Source: a virus | IMG/VR virus record: IMGVR_UViG_3300042936_000545 | Location: 1 to 22,934 of that record | Direction: 5' to 3' (one strand) | DNA length: 22,934 nt | Part shown: positions 2,941 to 15,777 of the stretch, piece by piece | Layout: each line of letters starts with the position of its first letter | Numbering within the stretch: position 1 is the first letter of the stretch | Program-made: the position numbers and the translations under genes | Notes under the pieces: generated by a model | Databases searched by the model: none | The model's input: only the letters and a program-made list of their open reading frames with translations | Told to the model about the DNA's origin: nothing

Positions 2941-3156
2941 ATGATAACACCAGAAGACCAACCCGAACCAACAGCAGAACAAATCGCCGAAAATCGCGCC
3001 GCCGCACTCAACGCCGAGCATCCAGCATCATGGGTTTGGGACGAAAGTGCTGTATCGTTTGTTCCTCCAATACCGTTGCCTACTGACGGCAAGCCATATC
3101 TCTGGGACGAGGCGACAAGATCCTTCATACCGTTTCCAGGATTTCCAACTGACTAA
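2941..3156 (+). CDS. Small virion-type protein with duplicated WDE motif
   Basis: A 71-residue acidic, Pro-rich protein. Two copies of a roughly 20-residue unit are visible: SWVWDESAVSFVPPIP, and PYLWDEATRSFIPFPG, each ending in PTD. Similar W-x-DE-x(5)-F-x-PP/P units occur in small structural proteins of marine myoviruses, from general recollection. The gene has its own likely promoter: TATAAT at 2912-2917, with TATTTAT at 2897-2903 further upstream. Higher G+C than its surroundings. Function not established; a tail or capsid accessory role is the best guess. Confidence 0.6.
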   Translation: MITPEDQPEPTAEQIAENRAAALNAEHPASWVWDESAVSFVPPIPLPTDGKPYLWDEATRSFIPFPGFPTD

Positions 3157-7534: not shown

Positions 7535-8260
7535 TTACTCGTATATCAAATAGGGCAAATATGCTCTACGAAGTATATCGTTGGCCAAATCGCTGTCAAA
7601 AGAATATGAGAACTTACGATTGTCATATGCTTTCTTGAGTTCAACTTCAAGCATATCAGCTTTTTCGTTCAACTCAACTCTACCATGTTTTTCTGGTTGA
7701 GTTTTTACACTCATCAAACTCTCATGTATTGCTGTGTTGTATTCTTTCATGTTTACTGGAAAATAACCATCTTTGAATAATGCTATTCCGCAGTAAGCTA
7801 GTCGATAAAGCTGTGTGAAATTTTTTGGGCTGAAACCATACTTATCAAGTTGTGCTTTACGTTTGCTACCAAGTTGACCTGTACGCTCACCATTGGCCAG
7901 TCGTCGCTCGCCTTGCATATAACCAAGCAAGCATCTAAACATTTTGTCTGTGTCCACAAACTTGAGTTTGTTTTCTTGAACTTCGCTAAATTCAACGGAA
8001 GTTTCAAGCAAGCACGCTTTTTCTGTAAAAAGCAATTCAAGTGCCCCAGTGTTTCCATTACGAAGCAATTCAAAGAATTTACGAAATTCATAATAAACAA
8101 CGTCGTCGGTTTCTTGTTTTTGAACATGATCCATCCGATCCAATCCAAGTATCTTGGACGGCTCTGTGTTTATGAAAACCCCACGATAATCTATATCACT
8201 CTCTGGAGTGTCTAGACCATATGCACGACTTCCACCTAAACTTTTTACTAGCATTTGCAT
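7535..8260 (-). CDS. RlaP-like predicted nucleotidyltransferase
   Basis: A 241-residue protein of the polymerase-beta superfamily. GSRAYG (10-15) and SDIDYRG (21-27) give the Gly-Ser and Asp-x-Asp catalytic signature of the family often annotated as nucleotidyltransferase or RlaP, which in phages is commonly seen near RNA-repair genes. The helical C-terminal half contains a conserved-looking GYMQGERR segment. An RNA ligase is encoded at 14662, so a role in RNA end processing is plausible but inferred. TTGACA occurs upstream on its strand (about 8290), but with a poor -10. Confidence 0.75.
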   Translation of the reverse strand: MQMLVKSLGGSRAYGLDTPESDIDYRGVFINTEPSKILGLDRMDHVQKQETDDVVYYEFRKFFELLRNGNTGALELLFTEKACLLETSVEFSEVQENKLKFVDTDKMFRCLLGYMQGERRLANGERTGQLGSKRKAQLDKYGFSPKNFTQLYRLAYCGIALFKDGYFPVNMKEYNTAIHESLMSVKTQPEKHGRVELNEKADMLEVELKKAYDNRKFSYSFDSDLANDILRRAYLPYLIYE

Positions 8261-9060: not shown

Positions 9061-9558
9061 TTAGTTGGCATCAAGGCGATATACTATTACATCGCTTGGA
9101 TAATCATCAAACGCTACTTCAATAAGCCGAGAAACAATGTCCCAATTTCCACCTCCGCGAAAACTTCCCATTTGAAATGGAAATCCAACAGATGGAACTG
9201 GTAGGTCCATGTCATTTTCTACCAAATCATGTGCCATACCTTCTAGAGCAGAATACAGAGCATCGTAATTAGTTTGTCTTGTGCCTTTACCAAAAAGATT
9301 TTGACCATACAAGTTATAGATGCGACGTATGGAGCTACTGTTGTTTTCGGCTGGGATATAACCAACTGAAAATCTTCCCAATGTATTTGCTTTTGTTATT
9401 GCTGCATTACAATCTGCTTTATATGCAGCTGGATACATTTCACGAATACTACGAGCAATGCCACTGCCGAATGTATTTTGGCAATTAGCTTGGTGACTAA
9501 TAACTTCAACATCCTTGGCGAGCAATAGATTACCTTCTTTGTAGATTAGTTTTTTCAT
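9061..9558 (-). CDS. Macro-domain protein (ADP-ribose binding/hydrolase)
   Basis: A 165-residue protein covering one macro domain. The family signature is clear: GNLL (9-12), SHQANCQNTFGSGIAR (21-36) forming the ADP-ribose loop, NLYGQ in the middle, and GFPFQMGSFRGGGNW near residues 124-138. Macro domains bind ADP-ribose or remove it from protein or nucleic acid. The GxGIA loop is most like the hydrolase/Appr-1''-phosphatase group. In a phage it may remove toxin-made ADP-ribose or process NAD- or RNA-derived fragments. Single gene, facing away from the tail protein downstream on the plus strand. TTGACA occurs upstream on its strand (around 9595), with a weak -10. Confidence 0.85.
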   Translation of the reverse strand: MKKLIYKEGNLLLAKDVEVISHQANCQNTFGSGIARSIREMYPAAYKADCNAAITKANTLGRFSVGYIPAENNSSSIRRIYNLYGQNLFGKGTRQTNYDALYSALEGMAHDLVENDMDLPVPSVGFPFQMGSFRGGGNWDIVSRLIEVAFDDYPSDVIVYRLDAN

Positions 9559-10122: not shown

Positions 10123-10770
10123 TTACATATCTATGCTATGATGGTCTGGTGATTTTGTTTTACGAGGATTTAGTTCGCGCACAATCTCATTCCATTCCAC
10201 TGGACGTTTCATCCATTCCCAACCTACATCTATTCTATAAAGACTAGTATCTTCTTTTAGATTGCGGTGACAGTGACCGTGGATATGATAGGCGTCTTTA
10301 GATAAATGATTCCAAGATGCGATGGGATAGTGATCCAAGATAACAGCCCTGCCATCAATAAAGATTTCAGCTCTGTGACCAAGGAATGTAAAATTGCTAT
10401 TTCTATATGTTAGTGGATATATTTCAATATCATCGGCAAGTAATCCAACTTCGCTACGGCATTCATCATACATTTGTTGAATACCTGCGTTATGATTGCC
10501 CCAAATAAAATATTGATGCTTGCAAGGTAGATATACAATGCGTTTAGCATATTCCATAGAATTTGCACCAGCACCAATAACCATGTCGCCAAGATTAAAT
10601 AGAATATCATCCGGTCCAATCATCTTGAGCATTTCATGAGTATGAGTATATGCTTCACTAACATTTTGATATTTGCGCGGACCAAGAATAAATGGCTTGT
10701 CGTGACCTAGATGTAGGTCACTTACAAACCAAATTTTTTGGTCGGCTGATTTTAAACTAATTTTTTTCAT
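10123..10770 (-). CDS. Calcineurin-like metallophosphoesterase
   Basis: A 215-residue protein with every metal-site motif: SDLHLGH (17-23), GD (61-62), GNHN (91-94), LDHYPIA and HIHGHCH towards the C-terminus. It should be an active two-metal phosphoesterase; the phage and bacterial relatives act on nucleotides or RNA ends. Last gene of a minus-strand operon: its ATG overlaps the TGA/TAA region of the cREC gene by 4 nt, so translation is coupled. The partnership with a cyclic-phosphate-type receiver protein suggests work on cyclic or terminal phosphates. Confidence 0.85.
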   Translation of the reverse strand: MKKISLKSADQKIWFVSDLHLGHDKPFILGPRKYQNVSEAYTHTHEMLKMIGPDDILFNLGDMVIGAGANSMEYAKRIVYLPCKHQYFIWGNHNAGIQQMYDECRSEVGLLADDIEIYPLTYRNSNFTFLGHRAEIFIDGRAVILDHYPIASWNHLSKDAYHIHGHCHRNLKEDTSLYRIDVGWEWMKRPVEWNEIVRELNPRKTKSPDHHSIDM

Positions 10771-11126
10771 TTTCTGCTTTTCTTGTAAGATTCAATATAA
10801 CTGCGGATGTTCTCACTGCCAATAGGATTCATGCTATGAACTTGATACTCTGGAAAATCATATTTGTGTTGAATGCAATATTCAACAATCCATTTGCAGC
10901 AATCATACCCCGTTTTTTCTTTGTAATTTTCATAAGTTGGATTTCCCGTAACATAATGTTCAAGTCCCAAATCGTGATCAAATGAAACAAACGACGGCAA
11001 ACCATGTTGTGTAATATACTTTACAAAATGATCATAGTTGCGAACTACAACCCACGGACCCATCGGCAATGTTACCCAAGTAACATTTTTTGGCAGACGT
11101 TCATCGTCAATGAAGAGCTTATACAT
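10767..11126 (-). CDS. cREC (cyclic-phosphate-processing receiver-like) domain protein
   Basis: A 119-residue protein from the internal ATG at 11126. The longer start at 11192 adds 22 poorly conserved residues that overlap the preceding gene. LFIDDERLP (4-12) and SFDHDLG (48-54) are the acidic pocket motifs of stand-alone receiver-like domains widespread in large phages and described as cyclic-phosphate processing (cREC). It has no DNA-binding output domain. It lies in an operon just ahead of a metallophosphoesterase, which supports a joint role in nucleotide or RNA phosphate metabolism. Confidence 0.7.
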   Translation of the reverse strand: MYKLFIDDERLPKNVTWVTLPMGPWVVVRNYDHFVKYITQHGLPSFVSFDHDLGLEHYVTGNPTYENYKEKTGYDCCKWIVEYCIQHKYDFPEYQVHSMNPIGSENIRSYIESYKKSRK

Positions 11127-11166
11127 ACCTATGTATCTTGACTCATTTTTATCAAATGTCAATACT

Positions 11167-11334
11167 CTAGATGATTGCGGTATTATATTCATCTAGGTAT
11201 TTATCAATAAGCAACTTGGAAACTTTGATACCCTTTTCATTTTTAGTATTCTCGAAGTGCTGTTTCTTTTTACGCCAATACTCTAAGTCTTCTAATAGTT
11301 CGGACTTTGTGCAGCTTTGTTTGTTATCACTCAT
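11167..11334 (-). CDS. Small coiled protein, unknown
   Basis: A 55-residue, Lys- and Glu-rich, mostly helical protein (SELLEDLEYWRKKKQHFEN near residues 11-29). It was found by reading the gap between its neighbours: its ATG overlaps the TGA of the zinc-finger gene as ATGA, a hallmark of translational coupling, and it ends just before the cREC start. No known family. The coupling and protein-like composition are the evidence that it is real. Confidence 0.65.
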   Translation of the reverse strand: MSDNKQSCTKSELLEDLEYWRKKKQHFENTKNEKGIKVSKLLIDKYLDEYNTAII

Positions 11335-11606
11335 TGTAATCTTCCCCCACCAACCATTACATTTCTCAAGGTGCTTGATTGACCTTTACGACTTGTTTTA
11401 GCCTTAAAGTCGGCATATACATCAGGTTGCATGATCTGCAAACTTCCAGCCGTTTTGTGCTCAAAAACCATAGCACCCATATATTTGGCTTGGGATACAC
11501 CTCGTTTAGCACATCGCAAGCATACTCGCAAACCAAGTTCGGCGCGAGCATCTTCAATAGATTCAGAGCAGCAACTGCAAGGATTTTTGTGTAGTAAATT
11601 AACCAT
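11331..11606 (-). CDS. TraR/DksA-like zinc-finger protein
   Basis: A 91-residue protein whose first third is a C4 zinc finger: C10-x2-C13, a helix SESIEDARAELGLRV, then C29-x2-C32. This spacing and the I-x(3)-R-x-E/L-G pattern follow the TraR/DksA family, whose members bind RNA polymerase in its secondary channel. The rest is unassigned. First gene of the minus-strand operon, under a promoter so close (6 bp from -10 box to ATG) that its mRNA is probably leaderless. It may modulate host transcription early in infection. Confidence 0.6.
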   Translation of the reverse strand: MVNLLHKNPCSCCSESIEDARAELGLRVCLRCAKRGVSQAKYMGAMVFEHKTAGSLQIMQPDVYADFKAKTSRKGQSSTLRNVMVGGGRLQ

Positions 11607-11612
11607 ACAACC

Positions 11613-11640
11613 ACTATGGGCTAAGTATATAAAAAGTCAA
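11613..11640 (-). promoter_or_regulatory. Sigma70-like promoter of the minus-strand operon
   Basis: On the minus strand: TTGACT (11640-11635), 16 bp, CATAGT (11618-11613), then 6 bp to the ATG. A small CAAG/CTTG hairpin overlaps the -35, as at other promoters here. Confidence 0.6.
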
Positions 11641-11691
11641 GCAAAACTTGTTTTTTTAAAAATAGGTCAAAAATAAATACGCTAAAAAACA

Positions 11692-11719
11692 TTGACATAC
11701 CTAAACAATATGATACTTA
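11692..11719 (+). promoter_or_regulatory. Promoter for the ncRNA-tmRNA unit
   Basis: TTGACA (11692-11697), 16-bp spacer, TACTTA (11714-11719). Predicted start near 11726, about 20 nt before the structured RNA. No other good promoter precedes the tmRNA. Confidence 0.5.
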
Positions 11720-11747
11720 TATGTGCAGTTCTTTGAATATCAATTTT

Positions 11748-11929
11748 TGAAACGTATAGGGTAGTCTAAAGGCCGAATATTATAAAATGTGCGGTCATTC
11801 TTTTCATGACAACTTAGTAGGTATCAAGTCAATGACTTGTCTAAAATAACCGAAGTCCGGAAGATAGGACGAATTACCCGAATGTAATTCCGGTGCTGAT
11901 TGCCCGAACATCAGTCCCTATGCGTTTCA
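11748..11929 (+). ncRNA. Novel multi-hairpin RNA with four CCGAA motifs
   Basis: A 182-nt domain closed by a 14-bp stem (one G-T pair): TGAAACGTATAGGG (11748-11761) with CCCTATGCGTTTCA (11916-11929). Inside are CAAGTC-AAT-GACTTG, GTCC/GGAC, GAATTAC-CCGAAT-GTAATTC and CTGAT/ATCAG hairpins. CCGAA occurs four times (11773, 11850, 11878, 11904), the last two in hairpin loops. GTCTAAA precedes the first two copies. No open frame of note crosses it. It ends 13 nt before the tmRNA, and both probably share one transcript. It matches no family I recognise. Confidence 0.6.
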
Positions 11930-11942
11930 ATTCTTTAAAAAT

Positions 11943-12333
11943 GGGCGTGTACTGGATTCGATTTTATAATATGAATACAAGCCGCAAGCACAGTGTGTAA
12001 TCTCACTGTATAATACCGATTGCAAAACATAAACGCAAAGAGAAATCTAGCTAAAGTGTCTTTCCTATCTGTTCGCAAGAACAAGAGTGGCAATGCACTT
12101 GTCGCAGCCTAATTAGGTTGCCCGTACTATCCTACTACGCAGATACTAGGAATAGAACGTTAATTATCTGCTGGTCTTTATAAGGCAGAGAGTCGGTAAT
12201 AAAGACAAGACACAGAACTCTCAACTTCAACACGGTGCTCTACCAAATGTTGTCGGATTATAAGAGATAAGCTTTGTATATGTTTGTAGGTATGTTATAA
12301 AAGACCGCAGTTCAACTCTGCGCACGTCCACCA
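11943..12333 (+). ncRNA. ssrA: Transfer-messenger RNA (tmRNA)
   Basis: A complete one-piece tmRNA of 391 nt. The 5' end GGGCGTG is followed by the hallmark CTGGATTCGA and pairs with CACGTCC at the 3' end. The T arm is CGCAG-TTCAACT-CTGCG and ACCA is encoded. The tag frame is read with resume codon GCA at 12035 (or GCT at 12050) and stop TAA at 12110-12112. It encodes a basic tag of 25 (or 20) residues ending NALVAA, a C-terminus that tail-specific proteases recognise. The tmRNA would rescue stalled ribosomes and tag their products during infection. The T-run right after CCA may help terminate it. Confidence 0.95.
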
Positions 12334-12344
12334 CTTTTTTTATA

Positions 12345-12372
12345 TTGACGAATGCGCTATTTAATGCATAGT
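12345..12372 (+). promoter_or_regulatory. Sigma70-like promoter of the beta-barrel gene
   Basis: TTGACG (12345-12350), 16 bp, CATAGT (12367-12372) followed by TATAT. It starts 12 nt after the tmRNA end and leaves a leader of about 40 nt before the ATG at 12419. Confidence 0.55.
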
Positions 12373-12418
12373 TATATACAAGTTACTCAAAAGAGTAAGA
12401 AAACTAAACAAAATAAAT

Positions 12419-13168
12419 ATGAATAAAAAAATCCTAATCATGATTGCGGCATTACTTGCCGTTGCTACTGTTAAAGCCGATGCTACTGCACCAGTTGTAG
12501 TATCAACAGCTTCTCCAGTCGCTATCACAGCTGATGCAACATACTACACCAAGTTCTTGAACAAGGGCGTTGTAGCATTTGATGACGTTGTTATTGCTGC
12601 TACCACAGTTGAAGCTTATGGCTTTGTTGCTGGCGTCAAGACCTACAACACCATCCAATCCAATCCAATTGGCAAGACCGTGGCCAGTTCTGGCTTGTTC
12701 AAGCGGGTTGATACCACGCTTGCCTACAAGTTCACCTCACCAATGGCGAACTTGTCGCTCGGCACGGCATACAGCTCTTATAGTAAGAGCGCAGCCAGTG
12801 TCGCAAGTTCCAATGAACCATTCGTCGCTCTTGACGGTACGGTTTATAAGACCTTCGCCACATGGGATGTTAAAGGCCGCGCCGATCTAACATCGCGCAC
12901 CAACAACATCGAAGCAAACGTTCGCCTACCATTCGGCTTTAACCACCTCAAGGTTGTGCCAGTTCTTGGCTACGGCTTCAACGATCCAACAGCCGCTACC
13001 ATAGCTGCTTTCAAGGATGCTAAACAATATTGTGTTGCTGGTATTGGTCTTGGTTACTACACCAAGGTTGCTACCCTAAACGCCGGTGTTTACCAACGCC
13101 GTGACAGTCTATTCACCGCAGGAAATACCGTAAATGGTGTTTCGGCTGGTGTTGCTGTAAAGTTCTAA
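12419..13168 (+). CDS. Secreted outer-membrane beta-barrel-like protein
   Basis: A 249-residue protein. Residues 1-20 are a classic Sec signal peptide (basic MNKK, hydrophobic core, V-K-A before the likely cleavage). The mature part has many alternating hydrophobic strands ending in turns, for example VLGYGFND and VAGIGLGYYT. It ends in VAVKF, with the terminal Phe used by the Bam machinery. That fits a barrel of about eight to ten strands in the outer membrane. Codons are richer in C and G at third positions than in neighbours, as in strongly expressed or recently acquired genes. It has its own promoter and strong terminator. Role unknown: possible pore, receptor block or surface change. Confidence 0.7.
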   Translation: MNKKILIMIAALLAVATVKADATAPVVVSTASPVAITADATYYTKFLNKGVVAFDDVVIAATTVEAYGFVAGVKTYNTIQSNPIGKTVASSGLFKRVDTTLAYKFTSPMANLSLGTAYSSYSKSAASVASSNEPFVALDGTVYKTFATWDVKGRADLTSRTNNIEANVRLPFGFNHLKVVPVLGYGFNDPTAATIAAFKDAKQYCVAGIGLGYYTKVATLNAGVYQRRDSLFTAGNTVNGVSAGVAVKF

Positions 13169-13227: not shown

Positions 13228-13255
13228 TTGACAAACTATATAAAATGTGTATATT
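13228..13255 (+). promoter_or_regulatory. Sigma70-like promoter, leaderless uvsE
   Basis: TTGACA (13228-13233), 16 bp, TATATT (13250-13255). The ATG is 6 bp further on, so the first transcribed base is probably at or next to the start codon. Confidence 0.7.
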
Positions 13256-13261
13256 GATTGT

Positions 13262-14221
13262 ATGATATTACCAAAAAATGTAGTTCCATCGCTTTGTTGT
13301 ATTCACACTGGCTTACAAAAAACTGGCGTCAAATTTAATGTTATGACTTATGCTCAATATAAAAAACTGGGCAAACAAGTTGCTATGAAAGTATTAGCAG
13401 ATCGTTCTTATAACAACATCAAAACAATTCATTCTATTGTCAAAGAGTGTGCCAAGAATGGATGGAATTATCGCATAGGCAGCAGTGTGTTTCCGTTGAT
13501 GACACATCCAGATTTAAATTTTAACGTAGATGATTTTTACAATGCTGCTGAGATTTATGCAGAGTTTCGTGATTGTGCAAATACTATCAAACAGAACAAG
13601 ATTCGTTGCAGTATGCATCCAGACCAATTTGTTGTTCCAGCCAGTCCAAACTCAAAAGTTCGTATAAATGCTATTCGCGACCTTGAACAACATGGCTATA
13701 TAATGGACTTGCTTGATTTGCCCAAAACACCAGAAGCACCTATTAACATTCATATGAATTGTTATAATAATGGTAACTTTAGTGAAGCTGCTGATAGATT
13801 CATTGAGTCATATAATCTAATGAGCAACAGTGTGCGTCCACGATTGGTATTGGAGTGCGAAGACAAAATTAAAAGTTGGAATACTAAATTGTTATATGAG
13901 CATGTGTATAAGAGAATCAACATGCCAATTACATATGACTCTCATCACCATAGATGCGGAAATACTTACGGTAACTTAACTCCGGAACAAGCATGTGATT
14001 TGGCAAGAACAACTTGGGGTAATCACAAACCTCTATTTCACTTTAGTAATGGAAAAAATTCCCCAATTGACAGAGCACATTCCGATTGCGTATATCAAAT
14101 ACACGAAGAATTGTTCAAATGTCCCACGGATGTTGATTTTGAATTTAAATTCAAAGAACAATCTATTATTAAATTTGTGGAGAAGTTCTCCATCCTAGAC
14201 ACTGTTTGTACTTCCCCTTGA
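13262..14221 (+). CDS. uvsE: UV-damage endonuclease (UvsE/UVDE family)
   Basis: A 319-residue TIM-barrel protein. The ATG at 13262 is preferred over a GTG 15 nt upstream that lies inside the promoter. Family motifs are RIGSSVFPLMTH (71-82), R115 with SMHPDQF (117-123), INIHMNCY, LVLECEDK and YDSHHHRC, which supply the His/Asp/Glu metal ligands. The enzyme nicks DNA 5' of UV photoproducts. Length is normal for bacterial UvsE. It gives the phage excision repair independent of the host and suits a sunlit aquatic habitat. Monocistronic under a strong promoter; no terminator was recognised after it. Confidence 0.9.
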   Translation: MILPKNVVPSLCCIHTGLQKTGVKFNVMTYAQYKKLGKQVAMKVLADRSYNNIKTIHSIVKECAKNGWNYRIGSSVFPLMTHPDLNFNVDDFYNAAEIYAEFRDCANTIKQNKIRCSMHPDQFVVPASPNSKVRINAIRDLEQHGYIMDLLDLPKTPEAPINIHMNCYNNGNFSEAADRFIESYNLMSNSVRPRLVLECEDKIKSWNTKLLYEHVYKRINMPITYDSHHHRCGNTYGNLTPEQACDLARTTWGNHKPLFHFSNGKNSPIDRAHSDCVYQIHEELFKCPTDVDFEFKFKEQSIIKFVEKFSILDTVCTSP

Positions 14222-14661: not shown

Positions 14662-15777
14662 ATGAAAATTGATCTACAGTCCATCGATCCTGAATCATTT
14701 ATGGTGCATCAACACTTTGTTGGTGAGCATGAGTGCTTTTTGGTACAACCAATTCATTTTGGAGCGATTTGGGTAAAGGAAAATCTTATTTACCGTTCAT
14801 CCTTATGGGACAAGGACGGTAATCCTGTATCGTTGAGTTTCAAAAAGTTCTTCAATTACGACGAAAAGCCTGACATTTTTCCAGCACCTTCCAACCTAAC
14901 TGGTGCGAAGTTAATGGAAAAGCTGGACGGTTCTACTTTAATCTTTTCTCGCTACAAAGGTCAAACTGTTATTCGTACACGCGGAACTGTTGATGCTCGT
15001 AAGCAAGCAAATGGACATGAGATAGACTATTTGCTTCAAAAGTATCCAAAGTTTGCAGATATGTTGAATCAAGCCGACACATACGATCAATCGTTTATAT
15101 GTGAGTGGTTGAGTCCAACCAACAGAATTGTACTGAATTATGGCAATGAGCCAGACATGAAGTTGATTGCTGTAATCAACCACGCAGATTATACGCTTGC
15201 TCCGCAGAGTGTATTGGACTTGTATGCAAATAGTTGGGATTTACCACGTCCTCGCACTTTCTCTTACAACTCTGTTGAAGAAATGAAGTCGGCAGTTGAA
15301 GTGTTGAAAGACCAAGAAGGCTTGTGTGTATATTATGGTAACGAACAACAAATTCGTAAATTAAAAGCCGCCCAATATCTTTTTTTACATCGTGCAAAAA
15401 GTGAAATTTCTAGCGTAGACAAAGTGATTGATGTGTATATTGATTGGTTTATGTCACGTCACACATTATCACATGAACCAACTGGATATGTAGAATTCTT
15501 TGAGTATATAACTATAAAGTTTGACTTTGAGATTGCTACAATGGCAACTGGACATGCTTCGCGTATCTGTGATGCTATGAAAGAAGTTCACAGGATTATG
15601 AATGCATTGTTTGAGTTTGCGTCTGCTCGTATGAACATTCCTCGCAATATTGCCGCAAAGGAAGTATTACAAGCATATGGCAGCACAGGCAGAAGCGCGA
15701 TTATATTCAAAATGTTGGACCGCAAGACTATCGGTGCGGATGAATATAAGAAACTGCTATACCAAGTATTGAAGTAA
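14662..15777 (+). CDS. T4 Rnl1-like RNA ligase
   Basis: A 371-residue ATP-dependent RNA ligase. The nucleotidyl-transfer motifs are all visible: motif I KLDGST with catalytic K87, FICEW (145-149) for motif IIIa, EGLCVYY (219-225) for motif IV and K233/K235 for motif V. The upstream segment DGNPVSLSFKKFFN (52-65) is typical of the Rnl1 group. The helical C-terminal domain after about residue 250 matches Rnl1 architecture. It seals 3'-OH/5'-phosphate RNA ends, classically to repair tRNAs cut by host anticodon nucleases, which fits a phage carrying its own tRNAs. No Pnkp-type end-healing gene is in the window. Confidence 0.88.
   Translation: MKIDLQSIDPESFMVHQHFVGEHECFLVQPIHFGAIWVKENLIYRSSLWDKDGNPVSLSFKKFFNYDEKPDIFPAPSNLTGAKLMEKLDGSTLIFSRYKGQTVIRTRGTVDARKQANGHEIDYLLQKYPKFADMLNQADTYDQSFICEWLSPTNRIVLNYGNEPDMKLIAVINHADYTLAPQSVLDLYANSWDLPRPRTFSYNSVEEMKSAVEVLKDQEGLCVYYGNEQQIRKLKAAQYLFLHRAKSEISSVDKVIDVYIDWFMSRHTLSHEPTGYVEFFEYITIKFDFEIATMATGHASRICDAMKEVHRIMNALFEFASARMNIPRNIAAKEVLQAYGSTGRSAIIFKMLDRKTIGADEYKKLLYQVLK

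Follow-up and report, generated by a model that had tools for sequence, protein, structure and literature searches.

We analyzed positions 1 to 22,934 of IMG/VR virus record IMGVR_UViG_3300042936_000545, a stretch here called the window. On its plus strand, a structured RNA of about 180 nt lies at positions 11748–11929 and ends 13 nt 5′ of a phage tmRNA gene (11943–12333). This distance, given in a preliminary description of the locus, was confirmed by the ARAGORN and Rfam calls of the tmRNA (RF00023, 82.5 bits). The U-rich spacer between the two (11930–11942) measures 5–13 nt in nearly all relatives. Upstream of the RNA, a promoter-like element TTGAC-N15-GATACTTAT (11692–11720) is followed by GTTCTTTGA (11728–11736), a boxA of the rRNA-operon (rrn) type. 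All of these features are on the plus strand.

The tmRNA encodes the tag AKRNLAKVSFLSVRKNKSGNALVAA. With 25 aa (AKRNLAK...VAA), the tag of the window and its relatives is a long one and differs from those of Bacteroidota, of which GENNYALAA is an example. SmpB was not found in four relatives, some of them partial records, and so the host SmpB is probably used. The element TATATTGAC recurs right after the tmRNA (e.g., at window position 12345, and in loci L013 and L015), possibly as the promoter of the next gene. A UvdE UV-damage endonuclease gene (13247–14221) is a stable neighbor of the tmRNA in the clade. Around the window tmRNA we also noted an RNA-repair-like gene set comprising an RlaP nucleotidyltransferase, a macro domain, a cyclic-phosphate-processing receiver domain (cREC), and a T4 Rnl1-type RNA ligase, located at 7535–8260 (−), 9061–9558 (−), 10767–11192 (−), and 14662–15774 (+).

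Fold and Covariation of the RNA

The fold energy of positions 11748–11929 was −55.0 kcal/mol, compared with −37.4 ± 4.0 kcal/mol for shuffled sequences (z = −4.38), and none of the 200 shuffles folded as well. The fold remained unchanged when the tmRNA was included in the folded sequence. Both the 14-bp closing stem, with strands UGAAACGUAUAGGG and CCCUAUGCGUUUCA, and the internal hairpins of the preliminary description were present. No open frame runs across the whole element, and a coding explanation was rejected on that ground; the lengths of the homologues differ by non-multiples of three.

The structure was modeled with eight helices: P1, P2, a P3 arm of three short helices with an apical P4, P5, and P6. 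This model pairs 90.9% of the alignment cells and contains 18 compensatory pairs, changed on both sides. Slid control models paired at most 45% of cells and gave at most 5 double-change pairs. When the same substitutions were re-placed along the tree, the mean was 6.0 such pairs and the maximum 12, so that 18 was reached in none of 500 runs. RNAalifold recovered P1, P3, P5, and P6 unaided. Covariation had been named in the preliminary description as a check on the fold, and the 18 double-change pairs support it. Together with homologues in 37 contigs, these data establish the element as a genuine structured RNA, with a fold conserved well beyond chance.

The closing stem P1 (5′ strand 11748–11761, 3′ strand 11916–11929) is paired in 96% of cells and has 5 double-change pairs. 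Pairing in the alignment also supports the P2 hairpin (11771–11796). The P3 arm (11799–11864) is built of UCUUY/RAAGA, GAC/GUC, and GGY/RCC helices, of which P3a and P3c are 100% paired with double changes, and it is capped by P4 (11825–11839), a CAAG..CUUG hairpin of variable length. P5 (11871–11890, loop CCRAAU) shows double changes in 4 of its 7 pairs. It is joined through a CGGU segment (11891–11894), invariant in alignment A1, to P6 (11896–11914, loop CCCNAA), where double changes affect 4 of 5 pairs.

The best-conserved residues are UAGUAGG opposite CCGAAG in the P3 arm, the GAUAGG junction, and the P5 loop. Within the first of these, the pattern of AGUA (11816–11819) opposite GAA (11852–11854) is invariant, the CCGAAG strand being present in 14/14 members and in the diverged L013 form, while the flanking GGY/RCC pairs covary in the alignment. 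The sequence pattern of the region suggests a loop E (AGUA/GAA) module placed between two helices. The compactness of the multi-arm fold and its invariant, purine-rich core beside a processing site would also suit a new self-cleaving or other catalytic RNA that separates itself from the tmRNA. We consider this very improbable: no Rfam ribozyme matched, the strong conservation is internal rather than near the ends of P1, where a candidate cleavage site would lie, and RNase P is available for 5′ maturation of the tmRNA.

CCGAA Motifs

Copies of CCGAA start at positions 11773, 11850, 11878, and 11904. Four copies on one strand of 182 nt compare with 0.11 expected (naive Poisson P about 5e-6, for a count picked post hoc). 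Copy 1 lies in the 5′ strand of P2 and copy 2 in the internal loop of the P3 arm; copies 3 and 4 occupy the P5 and P6 hairpin loops, as drawn in the preliminary description. That description had proposed titration of a repeat-binding protein by the four motifs, to be refuted by homologues lacking the stems and the repeats. The homologues keep the stems and do not keep the repeats: copy 1 is found in 3/14 members, copy 2 in 14/14, copy 3 in 8/14, and copy 4 in 6/14. Copies 3 and 4 drift to forms such as CCAAA and CCTAA, the alternatives for copy 3 being CCAAA or CTGAA.

A protein-titrating sponge would draw on the likeness of the two hairpin loops (CCRAA and CCCNAA). Against it, copy 1 is unconserved, copies 3 and 4 vary, P6 is missing from L013, and the one invariant copy sits in an internal loop rather than in a hairpin loop. 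The stems are thus what selection holds, the titration idea is unsupported as stated, and we regard a sponge as quite unlikely. CsrB/RsmZ-type RNAs likewise carry a repeated short motif in their hairpin loops. The phage RNA, compared with them by model through Rfam only, differs in that its repeats are not conserved in all copies and its multi-arm architecture is fixed.

Distribution and Natural Variants

A search with the neighboring UvdE protein gathered 47 IMG/VR loci. Of these, 33 contain the RNA by nhmmer; with flanks included, they represent 19 distinct sequences, and full-length BLAST matches reached down to 73% identity. Three more scans, each with a pattern drawn from another part of the RNA, led back to this phage clade, with only a few chance sites besides. 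A fourth, looser scan added 4 contigs of a diverged form, bringing the total to 37 IMG/VR contigs. All belong to one clade, T4-like as judged from clamp-loader A, and the RNA always stands just upstream of the tmRNA, in a fixed place between boxA and the tmRNA gene; in the viral pattern scans it was never found away from a tmRNA. Each long record with a match (up to 297 kb) holds a single copy. In the gathered clade set, all contigs with a detectable tmRNA carry the RNA, except L024; in some of them the tmRNA was missed by ARAGORN and is present by BLAST. Such tmRNAs lie at 3087–3478 in L008, 8700–9091 in L041, 8726–9117 in L013, and about 1326–1707 in L018. Their acceptor stems are changed yet complementary (GGGCTCG/CGAGTCC; GTGGCCG/CGGCTAC), and those of L008, L041, and L013 have an altered T loop, with TAGATT for TGGATT.

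The RNA was not found in L084, L085, and L127. The pattern match in L050 was rejected for its unrelated context without partner motifs, and those in L165, L166, and L168 were chance matches in unrelated sequence. Six GTDB pattern matches were also rejected; the three that were read proved to be unrelated sequence without the 3′ motifs, and 5 of the 6 loci had no Rfam match. A covariance-model search of 296 Bacteroidota genomes gave no match, a result that shows little as the search had no positive control. In the nearest named relatives of the clade, Flavobacterium phage immuto and Microcystis phage Mel-JY01, we found no convincing tmRNA and no RNA; neither phage has the RNA-tmRNA unit.

Two natural variants delimit the element. 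In L024, the promoter and boxA run straight into a full tmRNA, the RNA being cleanly missing and the gap between boxA and tmRNA being about 17 nt. The RNA is therefore separable, and the tmRNA gene is maintained without it. The diverged form of L013 and L010 was found by covariance model (E = 7.7e-9). The minimum free energy structure of the L013 form alone rebuilds P1, the P3 arm, and P5; CCGAA copy 2 is kept, and P6 and the CGGU segment are lost.

The inverted repeats that bound the element and the clean empty site of L024 could also point to a small MITE-like mobile element, whose 14-bp terminal inverted repeats would mimic a stem. Opposed to this are the G-U pairs kept in the stem, the double changes in internal helices, a closing-stem sequence that is wholly different between L013 and the other members, and the presence of a single copy per record at always the same site, with no copies seen at other loci. 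On the RNA-level covariation and the single copy we rejected this explanation, the least probable of those considered.

Promoter and boxA

The promoter-like element is kept as TTGAC-N15-GATAMTTAT in all homologues, with fixed N15 spacing, and occurs once per examined contig, at the RNA-tmRNA unit. According to the preliminary description, the RNA and tmRNA probably share a promoter. This agrees with the single conserved site at the head of the unit and with the same site directly before the tmRNA in L024.

The boxA of rRNA operons is the site of NusB/S10. The phage GTTCTTTGA is invariant among homologues, 9–11 nt 5′ of the closing stem, and identical to the boxA of the rRNA operons of Bacteroidota, the likely host phylum, where the same 9-mer occurs in an rRNA leader and in 16S-23S spacers. 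Labilibaculum has one copy about 109 nt ahead of its 16S rRNA gene and another in the 16S-23S spacer, and in Mucilaginibacter the 16S-23S spacer contains it; these are boxA positions of rRNA operons. The 9-mer by itself is no rarity in AT-rich DNA (three occur in the window), and the boxA argument rests on its invariance and position. Given the identity with Bacteroidota rrn boxA, the unit reads as promoter, rrn-type boxA, clamped RNA, and tmRNA; with the promoter-like element and a boxA at an rrn-like place, its layout resembles that of a small rRNA operon leader. The boxA type and the phage relatives favor a Bacteroidota host; no direct host link was found. In L029, a boxA-like GTTCTTTGA (1652–1660) also stands a few nt before a tRNA-Leu at 1665, which may be chance.

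Alternative Pairing and a Possible Leader Function

The invariant CGGU segment can pair with RCCG at 11849–11852. This pairing and the P3 arm are mutually exclusive states that lie within about 5 kcal/mol of each other in 14/14 members, and in several, the window included, the competing pairing is at least as stable as the covarying P3 arm. Such near iso-energetic states give some weight to the main rival explanation, in which the fold is a cis-acting tmRNA leader that controls transcription across the tmRNA precursor, its folding, or the processing of its 5′ end. It could do so as a protective 5′ structure, as an RNase III or RNase P signal, or as a switch between the P3 arm and RCCG/CGGU. 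The U-rich spacer after P1 is in line with it, and the constant linkage, a few nt upstream of the tmRNA and nowhere else in the viral scans, could equally mean cis action. The same explanation loses weight with L024, whose promoter, boxA, and intact tmRNA do without the RNA, and with the L013 form that lacks the CGGU segment. The spacer, moreover, varies in length, and the plus strand of 11550–12450 contains no terminator-like site of the kind an intrinsic-terminator riboswitch would have. We rate a leader function as less likely than not.

Comparison with Known RNA Families

The scan of the window against Rfam 15 returned no family above the gathering threshold, and permissive scans (E ≤ 10) of three divergent members gave chance-level matches only; hits to sR32, AgrB, CRISPR-DR7, DGCR5, Yfr8, and Atu_C9 fell far below gathering scores and were rejected. 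A search of the open-access literature for structured RNAs preceding phage tmRNA genes yielded no report of one. The view that no known family fits, already taken in the preliminary description, is thus borne out, and the RNA is a new, previously unclassified family of one phage clade.

Function of boxA and the leader-trailer helix of rRNA have been described (PMC10250234, PMC5725501). As in rRNA operon leaders, only a short distance separates the phage boxA from the 5′ strand of a long-range stem, within which a folded RNA is enclosed; here the enclosed RNA is of about 180 nt and precedes a tmRNA, and is not rRNA. With 13–14 bp, the phage stem falls short of the >17 bp that proved critical in the case of E. 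coli 16S (PMC10250234). Like the RNA described here, GOLLD and ROOL are structured phage or prophage ncRNAs; they often lie near tRNA genes and have no known function (PMC12286853). They are several times larger (GOLLD often exceeds 800 nt), whereas the present RNA is tied to a tmRNA and boxA, and their covariance models gave no match, including at E ≤ 10 in Rfam. The element probably belongs to the same transcription unit as the tmRNA precursor (RF00023), but it lies outside the tmRNA model and is absent upstream of the L024 tmRNA and of five inspected Bacteroidota tmRNA genes, which also have no boxA close upstream. Bacterial Y RNAs resemble it in that a long stem closes an arm-bearing RNA; there was no Rfam match, and Y RNA identity was rejected as four phage records, partial ones among them, yielded no Ro60 (TROVE, PF05731) gene.

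Discussion

The explanation we propose, which we see as evenly poised between right and wrong, is a separate phage ncRNA that is co-transcribed with the tmRNA, folds with the help of boxA and Nus factors, and acts in trans by way of its core. The transcription unit would produce two RNAs, the RNA of about 180 nt being the first cistron after the promoter and the rrn-type boxA, and the tmRNA the second. By analogy with boxA and the leader-trailer helices of rRNA, host NusB/S10 and other Nus factors would bind the candidate boxA and shield the untranslated transcript from Rho. The Nus complex would hold the leader near RNA polymerase, and P1 would close once its 3′ strand emerges. Release during 5′ processing of the tmRNA, raised in the preliminary description, is plausible: RNase P would cut at the 5′ end of the tmRNA, a few nucleotides beyond P1, and free a stable, stem-clamped RNA. 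The freed RNA would show its core (the UAGUAGG/CCGAAG loop-E-like arm, the GAUAGG junction, and the P5 CCRAA loop) to a partner in infection, presumably a protein or ribosome-associated factor. We infer action in trans from the conserved core and from the dispensability of the RNA for the tmRNA, the latter resting on one natural deletion, L024.

Its production together with the tmRNA would point to a part in translation or in rescuing ribosomes. In a more far-reaching version, which we put forward with considerable doubt, the phage would borrow the host boxA/Nus machinery to make an abundant stem-clamped RNA that binds ribosomes or a rescue or translation factor and, together with the tmRNA, retunes the handling of stalled ribosomes in infected cells, possibly as a switch between two folds.

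Structured phage RNAs that so far have no function assigned are few, and the present RNA adds a well-supported class to them. The empty site of L024 and the minimal, diverged L013 form provide a control and a definition of the core. The family also offers a concrete starting point for learning the role of phage tmRNA genes. Its rrn-type boxA hints that phages enlist the Nus complex to make stable RNA in settings other than rRNA and lambdoid antitermination.
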